Below are positions 120 to 6,351 of a DNA stretch of 6,351 nt, piece after piece. Under the pieces are notes generated by a model, which was not told the origin of the DNA, made no database searches, and was given only the letters and a program-made list of their open reading frames with translations. Origin of the DNA: an uncultured Thermoproteales archaeon (GTDB taxonomy: Archaea > Thermoproteota > Thermoprotei > Thermoproteales > Thermoproteaceae); NCBI GenBank assembly GCA_946480885.1, contig CAMLLK010000064.1, positions 1-6,351 of the forward strand. Reading direction: 5' to 3'. Each line of letters begins with the position of its first letter. Positions within the stretch are counted from its first letter, which is position 1. Both the position numbers and the translations under genes were made by a program.

Positions 120-1270
120 AGTCAATTACGGTGAAAAAAACGGCGTTGACAGGCAACCACGCAGTTGCTTATGCCGTCAAAATGGCAAAGCCTCATGTTA
201 TAGCTGCGTATCCAATCACTCCACAGACTTCAATAGTTGAAAAACTCGCCGAGTTTGTCGAAAGAGGCGAATTGAAGTCTAGTTTTGTAAATGTCGAGTC
301 TGAATTTTCTGCAATGTCTGTTGTATACGGCGCTGCAATGGCCGGCGCCAGGTCTTTCACTGCGACTTCTTCACATGGATTACTATATATGTACGAGGCC
401 ACATGGTGGACTGCGTTGAGTAGAGCGCCGGTGGTCATGGCTGTGGTAACTCGTACTATAGGCCCGCCCTGGAATATACATATTGAACACAACGACATAC
501 TTACATTAAGAGACTCGGGTTGGATTATATCCATGGCCGAAACCGTACAAGAGGCTTTTGATTTAACTATTCAGGCATTTAAAATCGCAGAGAATGCAAT
601 TCTTCCCGTTGCCGTGGGCATAGATGGATTTGTCCTCAGCCACTCTACAGAGCCTGTGGAGATACCTCCAGAAGAGGTAGTGGATAAATTCCTACCTCCA
701 CGTAGACAAGACGTCCCACTACTGCTGCGGCCTGGACATCCAGTCACCTTTGGAAACTTGCCCTCGGATAATAGAATACACGCCAGACATAAAATTTCTA
801 CTATCTACGAGGCTCAGCAAAATGCGAAAAAGATAATACAACAAATTGACGAAGAGTTCGGAAATATGTTTAACCGTCGGTATGGGGGCTTAGTAGAGTG
901 GTATAGATCAAGCGATGCAAAGTATATAGTTGTCTGTACAGGTGCATGGTGTAGCGACGCTAAACAAGCCGTGGATAAATTAAGAGAAGAAGGTATGTCT
1001 ATTGGACTCATGAGGCTGAGGTTTTTGAGGCCTTTCCCAAGCGAGGAGATTAAGAAACTTGACCAATTTAATAAAGTTATAGTATACGACCGAAACATCT
1101 CACCACTTGGAGGAATAATTGGAGTAGAGATAAAATCTATTTTAACAAAAGCCCAAGTGTTTAATATAGTCGCGGGCATAGCGGGTGTAGACTTCGACGC
1201 AGTTAATTTCTACGAAACTATAAAAAATACAATTGAGGGTAAGTATAGAGATTTAGAATTTATAATATGA
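116..1270 (+). CDS. porA: Pyruvate-type 2-oxoacid:ferredoxin oxidoreductase, alpha subunit
   Basis: A 384-residue protein, the usual length for the alpha chain of four-subunit archaeal POR. With the beta chain it oxidatively decarboxylates a 2-oxoacid with CoA to acyl-CoA, or runs in reverse, reducing ferredoxin in the cytoplasm. The N-terminal pyrimidine-binding domain (about 1-250) has the family signature AAYPITPQTS at 30-39, VESEFSA at 60-66, the helix with YEATWW (93-98), and TRTIGPPWNIH at 112-122. By analogy with Desulfovibrio PFOR, T35 and R113 would be the substrate-contacting Thr and Arg. The C-terminal transketolase-like domain starts near KYIVVCTGAW (about residue 269) and includes LRFLRPFP. 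The start is the ATG in the ATGA overlap with porD; GGTG at 104-107 could be a short Shine-Dalgarno. The end overlaps porB by another ATGA (1267-1270). Pyruvate is the best guess for the substrate; a 2-oxoisovalerate or broader 2-oxoacid enzyme cannot be excluded by reading alone. Confidence 0.92.
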   Translation: MKSITVKKTALTGNHAVAYAVKMAKPHVIAAYPITPQTSIVEKLAEFVERGELKSSFVNVESEFSAMSVVYGAAMAGARSFTATSSHGLLYMYEATWWTALSRAPVVMAVVTRTIGPPWNIHIEHNDILTLRDSGWIISMAETVQEAFDLTIQAFKIAENAILPVAVGIDGFVLSHSTEPVEIPPEEVVDKFLPPRRQDVPLLLRPGHPVTFGNLPSDNRIHARHKISTIYEAQQNAKKIIQQIDEEFGNMFNRRYGGLVEWYRSSDAKYIVVCTGAWCSDAKQAVDKLREEGMSIGLMRLRFLRPFPSEEIKKLDQFNKVIVYDRNISPLGGIIGVEIKSILTKAQVFNIVAGIAGVDFDAVNFYETIKNTIEGKYRDLEFII

Positions 1271-2157
1271 GCTTCCGTCTAGACCAGCTTCCAAAGAAAA
1301 AATACGTCTTGCCTGGCCACGCCGCGTGTGCAGGTTGTGGCATGATGATAGGTCTTAGAGTACTTTCTATGGCTCTGGGAGACGAATCTGTTTTAGTAAT
1401 ACCTGCCAGTTGTGCATCAGTAATACAAGGCCTGGCGCCAAAGACTAGCCTAAATGTACCAATTCTAAATACTCCATTCGCCTCTGCGGCAGCTGTAGCG
1501 ACGGGTATAGCCGAGGCTTTTAAAACTCTGGGAGCTAGAGGCCATGCTGTAGTGTGGGCAGGCGATGGAGGTACTGCGGATATTGGATTTGCGACATTAA
1601 GCGGCGCGGCGGAGAGAAATAGTAATATTATCTACATTATGTACGACAACGAGGCTTATATGAACACGGGGATACAACGTAGTAGCTCTACTCCAAAAAC
1701 TGCGTGGACGACCACCACCCCCATGGGCAAGCGCGAGAGAAAGAAAGACGTGGCGTTGCTCATGGCTATGCACGGAGTGCCCTATGTCGCGACGGCGAAT
1801 ATTGCATATCCACAAGACTTCTATAGAAAACTAAAAAGAGCCGCAGAGATCAGAGGCTTTAAATTTATACATCTACACACGCCATGTCCGCCGGGTTGGA
1901 GATACGACCCATCAAAGACTGTTGAAATTGCTAGACTCGCTGTGGAGACCGGCATGTGGATTCTATGGGAGTATGACAATGGACAATTTAAACTAAATCC
2001 ACCTAGTACTATCTATATTGATAAAAATAAGAGAAGACCTTTGAAAGATTATATTAAACTACAAGGTAGATTTAGCCATCTAACAGATGAAGATATTAAA
2101 CTATTAGAAGAAGAGCTTGATGACAAATGGCGTGTTTTACTTTCAATATTTAAATAA
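1267..2157 (+). CDS. porB: Pyruvate-type 2-oxoacid:ferredoxin oxidoreductase, beta subunit (TPP and [4Fe-4S])
   Basis: A 296-residue protein, close to the usual POR beta length. It binds thiamine pyrophosphate and the [4Fe-4S] cluster nearest to it. The cluster ligands are visible as C21 and C24 (HAACAGCGMM), C49 (IPASCAS) and C207 (HTPCPPGW), the four-cysteine set of this family. The TPP motif begins at G99-D100-G101 (WAGDGGTADIGF) and ends with YDNEAYMNTGIQRS (126-139), where N128 and N133 lie at the Mg/TPP site. The following STPKTAWTTTTPMG...KKD stretch is typical of PorB. Translation starts at the ATG inside the ATGA overlap with porA; no good Shine-Dalgarno is visible just upstream, so coupling to porA is likely. 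The TAA stop (2155-2157) is directly followed by the stop of a decayed gene on the other strand. No hairpin or long T-run marks the end of the operon. Confidence 0.93.
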   Translation: MSFRLDQLPKKKYVLPGHAACAGCGMMIGLRVLSMALGDESVLVIPASCASVIQGLAPKTSLNVPILNTPFASAAAVATGIAEAFKTLGARGHAVVWAGDGGTADIGFATLSGAAERNSNIIYIMYDNEAYMNTGIQRSSSTPKTAWTTTTPMGKRERKKDVALLMAMHGVPYVATANIAYPQDFYRKLKRAAEIRGFKFIHLHTPCPPGWRYDPSKTVEIARLAVETGMWILWEYDNGQFKLNPPSTIYIDKNKRRPLKDYIKLQGRFSHLTDEDIKLLEEELDDKWRVLLSIFK

Positions 2158-3013
2158 CTACTCCTTCTTAAAAGTCTTCCCAAGAGCGCGAGGCGGCTTC
2201 GCCTTCCCGATAGCGCCGGCAACAATTAAAAGAGTTGCTAAGTAAGGCACAATTCTAGTCAGTTCATATCTCGCAACTCCTAGAGTTTGAATCCAGTAGG
2301 AGATGGCGTCAAAAAAACCGAATATAAACGCCCCAACGACGGCTGTAATCCAGTTTGAAAACACAACATTAGCCAACGCTATAAAGCCTCTGCCTGCCGA
2401 AATCTCTTTTGTAACTACTGATAGATAGGCTATACTGAGATATGCCCCCGCCAACGCCACTAAACCTGCGCAGACCGACGTGGCGATAAGTCTACGTCGA
2501 TTCCGATATTGTAGGAAGACTCTGGGTGTTCTCCACACGCTCTTATGATAATCCCCAGCCTCGATTTAAAAAGTATGTACCACATAGCCACCGCCACAAG
2601 TATCGCCGACAGAGCTATTGTGAACGGGTCCCCTCTTACCCATTCCGGCACTTGTTTATAACCGGCCACTCCCCAATACGCCTCAATTATATATGCTACA
2701 GCTCCGGCGGCGACTTATAGCAACGCCGCTGATTATTTGATTCCCATTTAGATAAGCGACACTAGGCCATGTATTAGTCCAACCACTACGCCTACTACAG
2801 CCGCGGCCGCCATGCCGACAATAGGCCACATGTTAGCAGGGAGATTGACGCCTATTTTATAAATATTCTACGAAAAGCGGCGCAAATAAAGCCCCCATTA
2901 ACATTATGCCTTCAAGTCCGATATTCACAACACCACTTCGCTCTGTCAGTATTTCACCTAGTGTAGCTAGAAGTATAGGCTATGCCAACAATTATCCAGA
3001 CCATTGACTTCAT
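2158..3013 (-). pseudogene. Decayed nucleoside/simple-sugar ABC transporter permease (COG1079, YufQ/NupQ/BmpD-like)
   Basis: Read on the - strand, a single permease of about 285 codons can be pieced together from three frames. Segments in order: MKSMVWIIVGI (3013-2981); LLATLGEILTERSGVVNIGL and EGIMLMGALFAPLF (about 2973-2869); IYKIGVNLPANMWPIVGMAA ... GLIHGLVSL (about 2864-2754); LNGNQIISGVAI (2751-2716); AAGAVAYIIEAYWGVAGYK ... RLGIIIRACGEHPESSYNIG (about 2711-2505); RLIATSVCAGLVALAGAYLS ... ISAGRGFIALANVVF to the TAG stop (about 2493-2158). ERSGVVNIGLEG, NQIISG, GEHP and SAGRGFIAL are the order and motifs of the COG1079 integral membrane permease, which forms the channel with a YufP-type partner, a ribose/nucleoside ATPase and a Bmp lipoprotein. 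Frame changes lie near 2980, 2865, 2752, 2715 and 2496, some +1-like and some -1-like, so no simple recoding rescues it. The last 110 residues are intact in frame. The flanking genes have no such damage, so decay rather than poor sequence is favoured. Confidence 0.88.
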
Positions 3014-3030
3014 AGTTATCGAGTCTCTCC

Positions 3031-3040
3031 TATTTATATA
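3031..3040 (-). promoter_or_regulatory. TATA box ahead of the permease pseudogene
   Basis: The - strand reads TATATAAATA here, centred about 23 nt upstream of the ATG at 3013. This is the spacing of leaderless archaeal promoters and matches the other promoters in the window. It supports 3013 as the original start and suggests the dead gene may still be transcribed. The surrounding 3031-3060 stretch is very AT-rich, so a second TATA-like match is possible. Confidence 0.55.
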
Positions 3041-3100
3041 CAGTTATATACATATATTATGTTCTAAAGAATTTGCCTACCTACGCTCTTAGTTTGAGAT

Positions 3101-3115
3101 GAAAAAATTTTTATA
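3101..3115 (+). promoter_or_regulatory. BRE/TATA promoter of the thermosome gene
   Basis: GAAAAAATTTTTATAT: an A-rich BRE-like element (3101-3107) followed by a TATA box (about 3109-3115), centred about 24 nt upstream of the ATG at 3136. The spacing predicts transcription starting at or next to the start codon (leaderless mRNA). It also shows that the more upstream in-frame ATG at 3115 lies inside the promoter and is not the start. The 3041-3100 stretch between the divergent promoters shows no other clear element. Confidence 0.7.
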
Positions 3116-3135
3116 TGCACAATTTATGTCAAGCC

Positions 3136-4794
3136 ATGGCACAGCAAGCTCCTAGGACTGGAGTTCCCGTAATGATACTAAAAGAGGGTAGTCAGAGGAC
3201 CACGGGTGTCGATGCTAGAAGATCTAATATACAAGCAGCCAAGGTGATATCTGAGATTCTAGCTACTTCGCTAGGCCCCAGAGGTATGGACAAGATGTTA
3301 ATAGATGCGTTTGGAGACGTCACTATAACTGGCGACGGCGCCACTATTCTCAAAGAGATGGAGGTCCAACACCCCGCGGCCAAGTTGTTAATTGAAGTAG
3401 CCAAGGCACAAGACGCCGAAGTGGGCGACGGAACAACAACTGTCGTAGTCCTCGCAGGTAAATTACTTGAGTTGGGTGAAGAGCTTCTAGAGGAGGGTGT
3501 TCACCCAACGATTGTTATCGACGGCTATAAGAAAGCCGCCGATGAAGCGCTTAAGGTATCTGAAGAAATAGCAAAGCCTATTGAGTTGACTAAAGAACAG
3601 TTATTAAAAGTAGTTTCTAATGCTCTGTCCTCTAAGGTGGTTGCAGAGACTAAAGACTATCTCGCCAGTCTTGTAGTTGAGGCCGCGTTACAAGCCGTCG
3701 AGATGAGAGACGGAAAGCCATACCTAGACCTAGACTGGATAAAAATCGAAAAGAAGAAGGGCAAGTCTATATACGAGACACAGCTCGTCAGAGGCGTAGT
3801 GTTAGACAAAGAAGTGGTCCACCCGGGCATGCCTAAACGCATTACCAATGCTAAAATAGCCATTCTAGACGCCCCGTTGGAAATTGAAAAGCCAGAGTGG
3901 ACTACAAAAATCTCAGTCACAAGCCCCGACCAAATTAAAGCTTTCTTAGACCAAGAGGCGAGTATCCTTAAATCATATGTCGACCACTTAGCATCCATCG
4001 GTGCCAACGTCGTCATCACACAGAAAGGCATAGACGAAGTGGCACAACACTTCTTGGCAAAGAAGGGCATTATGGCTATTAGAAGAGTAAAACGCAGCGA
4101 CATTGAGAAATTGGCAAGAGCCACAGGTGCAAAAATTATAACTTCTATAAAAGACGCAAGGCCAGAAGACTTAGGAACTGCGGGCCTTGTGGAGGAGAGG
4201 AAAGTTGGAGAGGAGAAGATGGTATTCGTCGAAGATATACCCAATCCCAGAGCTGTAACAATTCTTGTTCGTGGCGGCAGTGACAGAATTTTAGACGAGG
4301 TCGAGAGATCTCTCCAAGACGCGCTACATGTCGCAAGAGATATATTCAGAGAGGCGAAGATTGTCCCAGGAGGCGGGGCCTTTGAGATAGAAGTGGCCAG
4401 AAGAGTTAGAGAATTTGCGAGAAAGCTCCCAGGGAAAGAACAATTAGCTGCTTTGAAATTCGCAGACGCATTAGAATTTATACCAACAGTGCTAGCTCTT
4501 ACAGCAGGTCTCGACCCAGTCGACGCAATCGCAGAACTTAGGCGGAGACATGACAATGGTGAGTTGTCGGCCGGCATTGACGTACTCGGCGGCAAGATAA
4601 CAGACATGGCCGCTCTAAATGTATGGGATCCGCTATTAGTAAAGAAGCAAGTTATTAAGTCTGCCACAGAGGCTGCTATAATGATTTTGAGAATTGATGA
4701 TATCATCGCCGCAGGTGCGCCGAAGAAAGAAGAGAAGAAAGGAAAGAAAGGCGAAGAAGAAGAAGAGAAAGGCGGAGAGAGTAAATTCGACTAG
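3136..4794 (+). CDS. thsA: Thermosome (group II chaperonin) subunit
   Basis: A 552-residue cytosolic ATP-dependent chaperonin subunit, full length for the family, which assembles into double rings with a built-in lid and folds proteins at high temperature. The N-terminal equatorial domain shows [15 protein letters not shown], the ATP-binding LGPRGMDKM (46-54), TGDGATIL (65-72) and the phosphate loop GDGTTT (97-102, with D98 contacting Mg-ATP). The apical substrate-binding and lid region is in the middle, including [16 protein letters not shown]. The C-terminal equatorial half has [12 protein letters not shown] (from P411) and [12 protein letters not shown]. The tail is an extremely charged Lys/Glu/Gly stretch ending in SKFD, encoded by an almost pure purine tract. 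The start at 3136 (MAQQAPRTG) fits family N-termini and lies about 24 nt after a TATA box; the in-frame ATG at 3115 is inside that box. Thermoproteales encode more than one thermosome paralogue, so the subunit letter (alpha or beta) is uncertain. Confidence 0.95.
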
Positions 4795-4845: not shown

Positions 4846-5175
4846 GTGGAATCTGTAACTACTAAAGAATTTTTAGAAAAAATTCAAAGACTTACACAAC
4901 TTCTAGAAAGTGCCTTGCACAAGAGAGATTTCTACCCCCCTCGTCTGACGAAATATGAAGTAGCTCGTATAATCGGCGCGAGAGCTATGCAATTAGCGAT
5001 GGGGGCCGCCCCTCTTGTAGATATAAAAGAAGTAGGCTCTACAGACCCAGTGATTATCGCAATGGAAGAGTTTAGGCGTGGACTTCTAGATTTTATAATA
5101 GTGAGAGAGTTGCCAGGCGGAAAAATTGTAAAAATTAGGTTGAAAGACCTTCTCGAACTTGAGAAGTCGCTCTAA
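4846..5175 (+). CDS. rpoK: DNA-directed RNA polymerase subunit K (omega/Rpb6 homologue)
   Basis: A 109-residue protein. The core from LTKYEVARIIGARAMQLAMG (34-53) through APLV and the segment STDPVIIAMEEFRRG to VRELPGGK is the Rpb6/omega fold, which clamps the largest RNA polymerase subunit and stabilises the assembled enzyme. The family core is short, so the first 33 residues form an N-terminal extension predicted to be mostly helical and charged. The GTG start is chosen because no ATG precedes the core and a TATA box sits about 24 nt upstream. The mRNA would be leaderless, unusual in that it begins with GTG rather than ATG. The gene follows the thermosome gene by 51 nt but appears separately transcribed. 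Its last 41 nt overlap the 3' end of the small convergent gene at 5135-5344. Confidence 0.93.
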   Translation: MESVTTKEFLEKIQRLTQLLESALHKRDFYPPRLTKYEVARIIGARAMQLAMGAAPLVDIKEVGSTDPVIIAMEEFRRGLLDFIIVRELPGGKIVKIRLKDLLELEKSL

Positions 5176-5344
5176 CAGGCTTCACTACAACAAGGTTGCC
5201 AAAAAAGTAGAACTCGTGGTCGCCTCTCACTATTTTCTTATCGAAGTTATTGCCAATTTCGATGTCATCCATTAGATAGTAGATCGTATACTTCTTAGTT
5301 TTATACAATCTGTACTTAACACCTGGGGGCAATTCCACAGTCAC
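5135..5344 (-). CDS. Small conserved-looking protein of unknown function, coupled to livF
   Basis: A 69-residue reading frame starting at GTG 5344-5342, which overlaps the livF TGA (5343-5341) as GTGA, the same coupling style as the por genes. I do not recognise the family. The protein (VTVELPPGVKYRLYKTKKY..., then DDIEIGNNFD and GDHEFYFFGNLVVVKPVRAT) has short alternating stretches suggesting an all-beta fold. It is rich in Lys and Tyr, with no cysteine, signal peptide or full-length membrane segment. The last 13 residues and stop fall on the antisense of the 3' end of rpoK, so that tail is probably not conserved. Being real is supported by the tight overlap with livF and by its length filling the gap between livF and rpoK. 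Against it are its small size and the antisense overlap. Confidence 0.6.
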   Translation of the reverse strand: MTVELPPGVKYRLYKTKKYTIYYLMDDIEIGNNFDKKIVRGDHEFYFFGNLVVVKPVRATSQVREGLST

Positions 5345-6130: not shown

Positions 6131-6183
6131 TTCTACAATTTAATATAAACCGCGGCGGTAGTCTAGCCTGGTTTAGGATGGCG

Positions 6184-6207
6184 TAGAGGCGCCGGGCCTC
6201 TCCACAA
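6184..6207 (+). other. Non-canonical tRNA intron at position 29/30 (24 nt)
   Basis: A clear bulge-helix-bulge splice motif frames this insertion. The outer helix is AGG (6175-6177) with CCT (6209-6211). The central helix is ATGG (6178-6181) with CCAC (6202-6205), including one A-C mismatch. The two three-base bulges are CG^T (6182-6184) and AA^G (6206-6208). The intron itself forms a 6-bp hairpin, AGAGGC (6185-6190) with GCCTCT (6196-6201), around a five-base loop. Removal restores the G30-C31 half of the anticodon stem. Position 29/30 introns are known from Thermoproteales and are cut by the heteromeric splicing endonuclease. Confidence 0.85.
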
Positions 6208-6215
6208 GCCTCCCA

Positions 6216-6227
6216 CGCTCCGAAGAA
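6216..6227 (+). other. Short tRNA intron near the canonical position 37/38 (12 nt)
   Basis: Removing 12 nt after A37 gives the anticodon loop CTCCCAA and a fully paired stem. The motif is relaxed: a 3' bulge AA^A (6226-6228), a four-position helix CTCC (6210-6213) against GAAG (6222-6225) with one C-A mismatch, and no intron stem, so bulge-helix-loop rather than full bulge-helix-bulge. Removing 6217-6228 instead would also give a valid tRNA (loop CTCCCAC), so the boundary is uncertain by one base. Confidence 0.65.
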
Positions 6228-6263
6228 AGCCGTTGATCCCGGGTTCGAATCCCGGCCGCCGCA

Positions 6264-6302: not shown

Positions 6303-6351
6303 AGATCGGAAGAGCACACGTCTGAACTCCAGTCACGAACGGTTATCGCGT
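6303..6351 (+). other. Illumina TruSeq adapter left in the assembly (artefact)
   Basis: Positions 6303-6336 match the standard 34-base TruSeq read-1 3' adapter, beginning AGATCGGAAGAGC and ending CCAGTCAC. The next eight bases, GAACGGTT (6337-6344), are in the place of the i7 index. ATCGCGT (6345-6351) differs by one base from the ATCTCGT that follows the index in the adapter. This is library sequence, not biology, and marks the true contig end at about 6302. Confidence 0.97.

Follow-up and report, generated by a model that had tools for sequence, protein, structure and literature searches.

A COG1079-type permease relic between porB and the thermosome gene of a Pyrobaculum relative: very probably a young pseudogene of a nucleoside-type ABC importer operon

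Ordinary prokaryotic pseudogenes decay by deletion. In the portion of PMC2688765 that bears on thermophile mutation, base-substitution rates of two thermophiles are given as about tenfold below those of mesophiles, with indel rates falling less, and in Sulfolobus acidocaldarius single-base indels dominate (84/95). An importer close in kind to that of the present locus is NupDABC (TK0657-TK0660) of Thermococcus kodakarensis, which the relevant section of PMC12628685 describes as a nucleoside-specific transporter. Our literature search found no paper that treats Pyrobaculum together with nucleoside transport, and what was listed on archaeal pseudogene decay held, at the level of the listings, nothing on the locus described here. 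That locus lies in a 6,351-nt stretch of contig CAMLLK010000064.1 from an uncultured Thermoproteales archaeon (hereafter the window, meaning this whole stretch), and its features are collected in table 1.

The plus strand of the window carries porA, porB, the thermosome gene and rpb6, with a stretch ahead of porA that resembles the last part of a ferredoxin-type gene, and the minus strand carries the permease relic and a LivF-like ATPase gene. The window's PorB is 99% identical to P0121 from a 'Pyrobaculum sp.' MAG (3 of 296 residues differ), and this supports the placement of the contig with a Pyrobaculum relative. A TATA-like element and start context at 3106-3136 are strongly conserved across the genus, and the conserved context suggests that the thermosome gene begins at 3136 and not at the start of the longer ORF at 3115. 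Further along, a tRNA-Gly(CCC) gene with a 25-nt intron occupies 6152-6263 of the plus strand; ARAGORN finds it with introns allowed only, its default run on the window having reported no tRNA, and Rfam at gathering thresholds gave no match in the window. Directly downstream of the LivF-like ATPase gene is a 69-aa ORF (5135-5344, minus strand) without a Pfam match.

Table 1. Coordinates of the relic, its internal deletions, its 5' elements and the two flanking genes in the window.
Feature	Position	Strand	Basis
porB, intact	1267..2157	+	PF02775 and NCBIfam matches
COG1079-type permease relic, body	2158..2977	-	residues 18-299 of P0001, frame-tolerant alignment
in-frame deletion, 6 nt	~2347	-	frameshift-aware alignment
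frame-shifting deletion, ~10 nt	~2494	-	frameshift-aware alignment
frame-shifting deletion, ~5 nt	~2712	-	frameshift-aware alignment
frame-shifting deletion, 1 nt	~2755	-	frameshift-aware alignment
frame-shifting deletion, ~5 nt	~2862	-	frameshift-aware alignment
leader-like start, 12 codons from ATG at 3013	2978..3013	-	resembles BMP N-terminus; inferred junction ~2977
TATA-box-like element	3031..3040	-	starts at -27 from ATG 3013; TATAAA core at -25
thermosome (cpn60) gene, intact	3136..4794	+	PF00118, TIGR02339

A sequence-only reading of the window had proposed a permease relic, which it labelled COG1079, scattered across three frames. Three-frame translation does place permease pieces in order over the minus-strand frames of 2158-3013, and a frame-tolerant alignment with the intact permease P0001 bears the proposal out, scoring 1246 against 46-87 for dinucleotide shuffles (8 of 8) and 50 for the opposite strand. 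A search with the joined segments, the failure of which the same reading had named as a refutation, also found intact permease homologues: among the best 120 of 6233 matches are many Pyrobaculum sequences, with P0001, from a Pyrobaculum sp. MAG, the nearest, and a Thermococcus homologue, P0062, that is 41% identical to the joined query. The frameshift-aware alignment takes the DNA rather than the joined protein; in it P0001 and the relic agree at 262 of 271 aligned residues (97%), in agreement with the claim that decay is recent and most codons are still recognisable. Some homologues bear the source name 'nucleoside ABC transporter membrane protein'; the COG1079 label is presumably the right one for the relic. 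The ORFs of the relic had been expected to pass as two hypothetical proteins, which holds for the 126-aa ORF (no Pfam family at E 0.001) but not for its 69-aa ORF, which matches PF02653 (E 8.8e-8, 32 bits against a cut-off of 26.8; intact P0001 reaches 118.8 bits). For the NCBIfam equivalog NF047928 (putative B6 ABC transporter permease 1) the relic stays below the curated cut-off with 90.7 bits, where P0001 scores 465.

Compared with P0001, the relic requires four frame-shifting deletions and one in-frame deletion (table 1) and has no insertions in the frameshift-aware alignment, and the same four frame-shifting events, placed to within 3 nt, are recovered with P0002, P0020 and P0004. Four of the five break sites proposed earlier fall within 3 nt of these deletions and the fifth, 2980, is instead the 5' edge of homology; the 'mixed sign' ascribed to the frame changes applies to the frame alone, since all the internal events remove nucleotides on balance. 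At the other end, the stop codon of the relic (2158-2160) adjoins that of porB (2155-2157). The frame that opens at the apparent start, ATG 3013 (position 3013 being the A of this minus-strand ATG), closes after 19 codons, so the relic is unable to make the permease. With its frame broken by four frame-shifting deletions relative to orthologues that 9 of the 11 genus genomes keep intact, and with constraint on conserved residues lifted as far as small numbers tell (3 of 9 differences), the relic is very probably a young pseudogene of a COG1079 permease, the last gene of an operon for a BMP / NupDABC-type nucleoside ABC importer.

The nine residue differences between the relic and P0001 were assigned column by column. 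In five of them the relic residue is absent from the 22 other intact Pyrobaculum homologues, one of the five lying beside a deletion. In three it is the P0001 residue that is absent from the other 22, and these three changes may belong to P0001, because the relic shares its residue with other intact homologues. The ninth difference may belong to either side. We had considered that all nine lay on the side of the relic, with permease tree branches of 0 for P0001 and 0.036 for the relic, and dropped this on the column count. Three of the relic-only changes are at columns invariant in all 23 intact homologues (141 of the 271 compared columns are invariant), which looks like lifted constraint, again on small numbers. 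In another Pyrobaculum-like lineage, P0064 (9,431-bp contig) is a 5'-truncated COG1079 homologue that differs from P0023 at 19 of 158 residues, 7 of these at invariant columns; the gene may have decayed there a second time, independently. We left out another homologue that looks degenerate, P0049, because both this protein and its nearest relative are partial and sequencing errors may be present in them.

The relic does not stand where the gene usually stands in the genus. The intact orthologues of the nine genomes are 71-74% identical to P0001, and the two remaining genomes (G004 and G013) have a ~35% paralogue only; a second, ~35%-identical BMP-type importer is seen in genus genomes, these two included. 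All nine genomes that carry the orthologue have it at a site other than the porB-thermosome gap, and in 10 of 10 genus genomes examined (G013 excluded) the thermosome gene directly follows porB across a gap of 45-271 nt, which in the window is 981 nt. In Pyrobaculum islandicum the order is BMP protein, ATPase, COG4603, COG1079 and then an Hsp20 gene, and a second permease directly precedes COG1079 in 6 of 6 loci read; the BMP protein, ATPase and second permease, which adjoin the intact gene in P. islandicum, are absent from the window. Of the 11 family genomes with both the operon and a uridine phosphorylase gene, 10 have the two no more than ~6 kb apart, an indirect hint that nucleosides may be what the importer carries. 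The association is not strict: among 19 genomes, three have the phosphorylase but no importer, and two small assemblies (G001 and G005) have the importer but no phosphorylase above the cut-off. In one genome (G010, ~4138-6714 of its locus L140) the BMP leader is in a different frame than the body, with a stop in between, and the BMP body and ATPase form one 827-aa frame; this could be another damaged copy of the importer, or a sequencing error.

At the 5' edge of the relic, homology ends at 2977 (residue 18) with P0001, P0002 and P0020, and with P0004 it reaches 2989 (residue 14), across an in-frame stop. The relic had been called nearly full-length, and the greater part of the permease is indeed recovered (table 1), but the first ~13-17 codons are absent upstream and not merely shifted: when sought in 2978-3135 they gave a score of 15, reached by 41 of 60 shuffles. 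Nor did the same interval yield a remnant of COG4603, the last 60 residues of P0210 scoring 19 (37 of 60 shuffles equal this) and P0209 doing no better (53 of 60). A weak tblastn match of P0210 at 2940-2875 (E 0.069) was rejected as such a remnant; it falls within the relic, on a motif common to both permeases. What does precede the edge is a 12-codon leader-like start under a TATA-like element (table 1). Each of the eight BMP genes that were compared has an element of this kind beginning at -27 as well, and such spacing is common in archaeal genes without leaders. (A scan for sigma-70-type promoters was set aside as not informative for an archaeon.) The 12 codons resemble the BMP leaders of G003, G001, G012 and G008 with scores of 22-27 and do not resemble the other four BMP leaders, with which they score 5-8. 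The best of these scores is reached by 6 of 445 other N-termini (one of the six being itself a BMP orthologue, L153), by 2 of 45 hydrophobic N-termini and by 43 of 2000 shuffles of the leader. Thus, with modest statistical support, the 5' end of the relic looks like a deletion junction with the first gene of the operon, that for the BMP protein. The unusual site of the gene and this apparent junction are points that the sequence-only reading had not raised.

A history that would account for both begins with the whole nucleoside-import operon, which in one Pyrobaculum clade would first have been relocated to between porB and the thermosome gene. One internal deletion of ~3.7 kb, a size estimated from gene lengths in P. 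islandicum (L137), would then have brought the BMP promoter and leader up against codon 18 of the last permease in the wrong frame, and the leftover permease would have been free to decay by small deletions. We lean slightly toward this sequence of relocation and BMP-permease fusion. The main competitor is a stray extra copy: a fragment with no more than the end of COG1079 would have entered the porB-thermosome gap, would never have worked at that place and would have decayed, with the real operon still intact elsewhere. The placement of the gene elsewhere in all nine genus genomes that have it, and the existence of an intact near-twin in P0001, would suit a stray copy; however, the 5' edge with its TATA box and leader resembles, with modest support, the operon's own start, and a 6,996-bp contig is listed both for PorB P0128 and for COG1079 P0002, which come next in kinship to the window's own proteins, which suggests an intact gene linked to porB insofar as equal size in bp, the sole basis for all such pairings here, signifies a shared contig. 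We regard the stray copy as doubtful. A look for repeats around the relic that might mark an insertion gave nothing convincing. A blastn search of 2000-3200 against plasmids found no relatives, and neither did searches of viral contigs and PDB sequences with P0001.

Permease and PorB trees agree in setting the window genes beside the P0002/P0003 and P0128 proteins, and by the same size-matching the COG1079 protein P0003 and COG4603 P0209 are listed with an 8,130-bp contig, and contigs of 16,891 and 34,688 bp likewise pair one COG1079 with one COG4603 protein apiece, the pattern that a single operon should give. In a sister lineage the operon may thus be near porB. PorB P0121 and an intact COG4603, P0210, are listed with a 114,379-bp contig; the 13,375-bp contig of P0001 is in neither the PorB nor the COG4603 match list. 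The sequence-only reading had spoken of loss of an import system in this lineage. Its operon partners are indeed gone from the locus, but intact COG1079 and COG4603 genes persist in close relatives, and since these relatives keep intact parts of the operon, what we observe is loss at this locus on this contig rather than loss by the species. Because close relatives keep intact copies, the loss has about an even chance of being a difference between strains. Somewhat more tentative, and a little short of even in our judgement, is the fuller proposal that the relocated operon is now being lost within the species, by the internal deletion and then by decay largely through deletions of 1-10 nt; if true, the locus would preserve in nature the indel-rich pattern of mutation that has been measured in thermophiles.

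Could the breaks be artefacts in a gene that is in fact intact? The contig end gives some reason to ask, since it retains at ~6305-6351 an untrimmed adapter, which we take to be of the Illumina TruSeq type. The adapter is a warning on assembly cleaning but does not explain multi-base deletions within one gene. The relic has five deletions in 819 nt, four of them multi-base, and there are no broken frames in the 4,746 nt of flanking coding sequence, whose five genes each match L003 as a single full-length piece; with an even spread, the probability that all five deletions fall in the relic is 7e-5, and that the four frame shifts alone do so is 5e-4. The deletions are, moreover, accompanied by the five relic-only residues. 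Sequencing error is thus an unlikely source of the relic, and we consider it highly improbable overall that faulty assembly or sequencing has disguised a gene that is really intact. It is scarcely credible that the C-terminal 126-aa frame, or the 69-aa one, still yields a functional product: a TATA-like element does lie upstream and the 126-aa frame is little altered from P0001, but the frame from the apparent start closes early, neither piece is a whole permease and three invariant residues are altered.

In comparison with known systems, the relic is of the same family and has the same residue order as the intact COG1079 / PF02653 permeases (P0001, P0020 of P. islandicum and that of Thermococcus), and unlike them it has a frame broken four times, lacks its start and stands alone at an unusual site. 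NupDABC resembles the intact P. islandicum operon in its subunit set of BMP protein, ATPase and two permeases, and by this analogy the undamaged operon would encode an ABC importer of nucleosides of the BMP type; unlike NupDABC, the window keeps one permease remnant and a probable BMP leader. The locus is probably an ordinary young gene loss whose likely history of relocation and operon-internal deletion is of some interest, and it offers a modest example, from a hyperthermophilic archaeon, of a lost gene that can be set against an intact near-twin. Like ordinary prokaryotic pseudogenes it has frame-shifting deletions, changed conserved residues and intact orthologues in relatives, and unlike them it has no insertions among five internal indels, four of which are longer than 1 nt. 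Its indel-rich decay fits the thermophile mutation pattern as given in the portion of PMC2688765 cited above, with the difference that multi-base deletions dominate in the relic (4 of 5) and single-base indels dominate in the spectra reported there.
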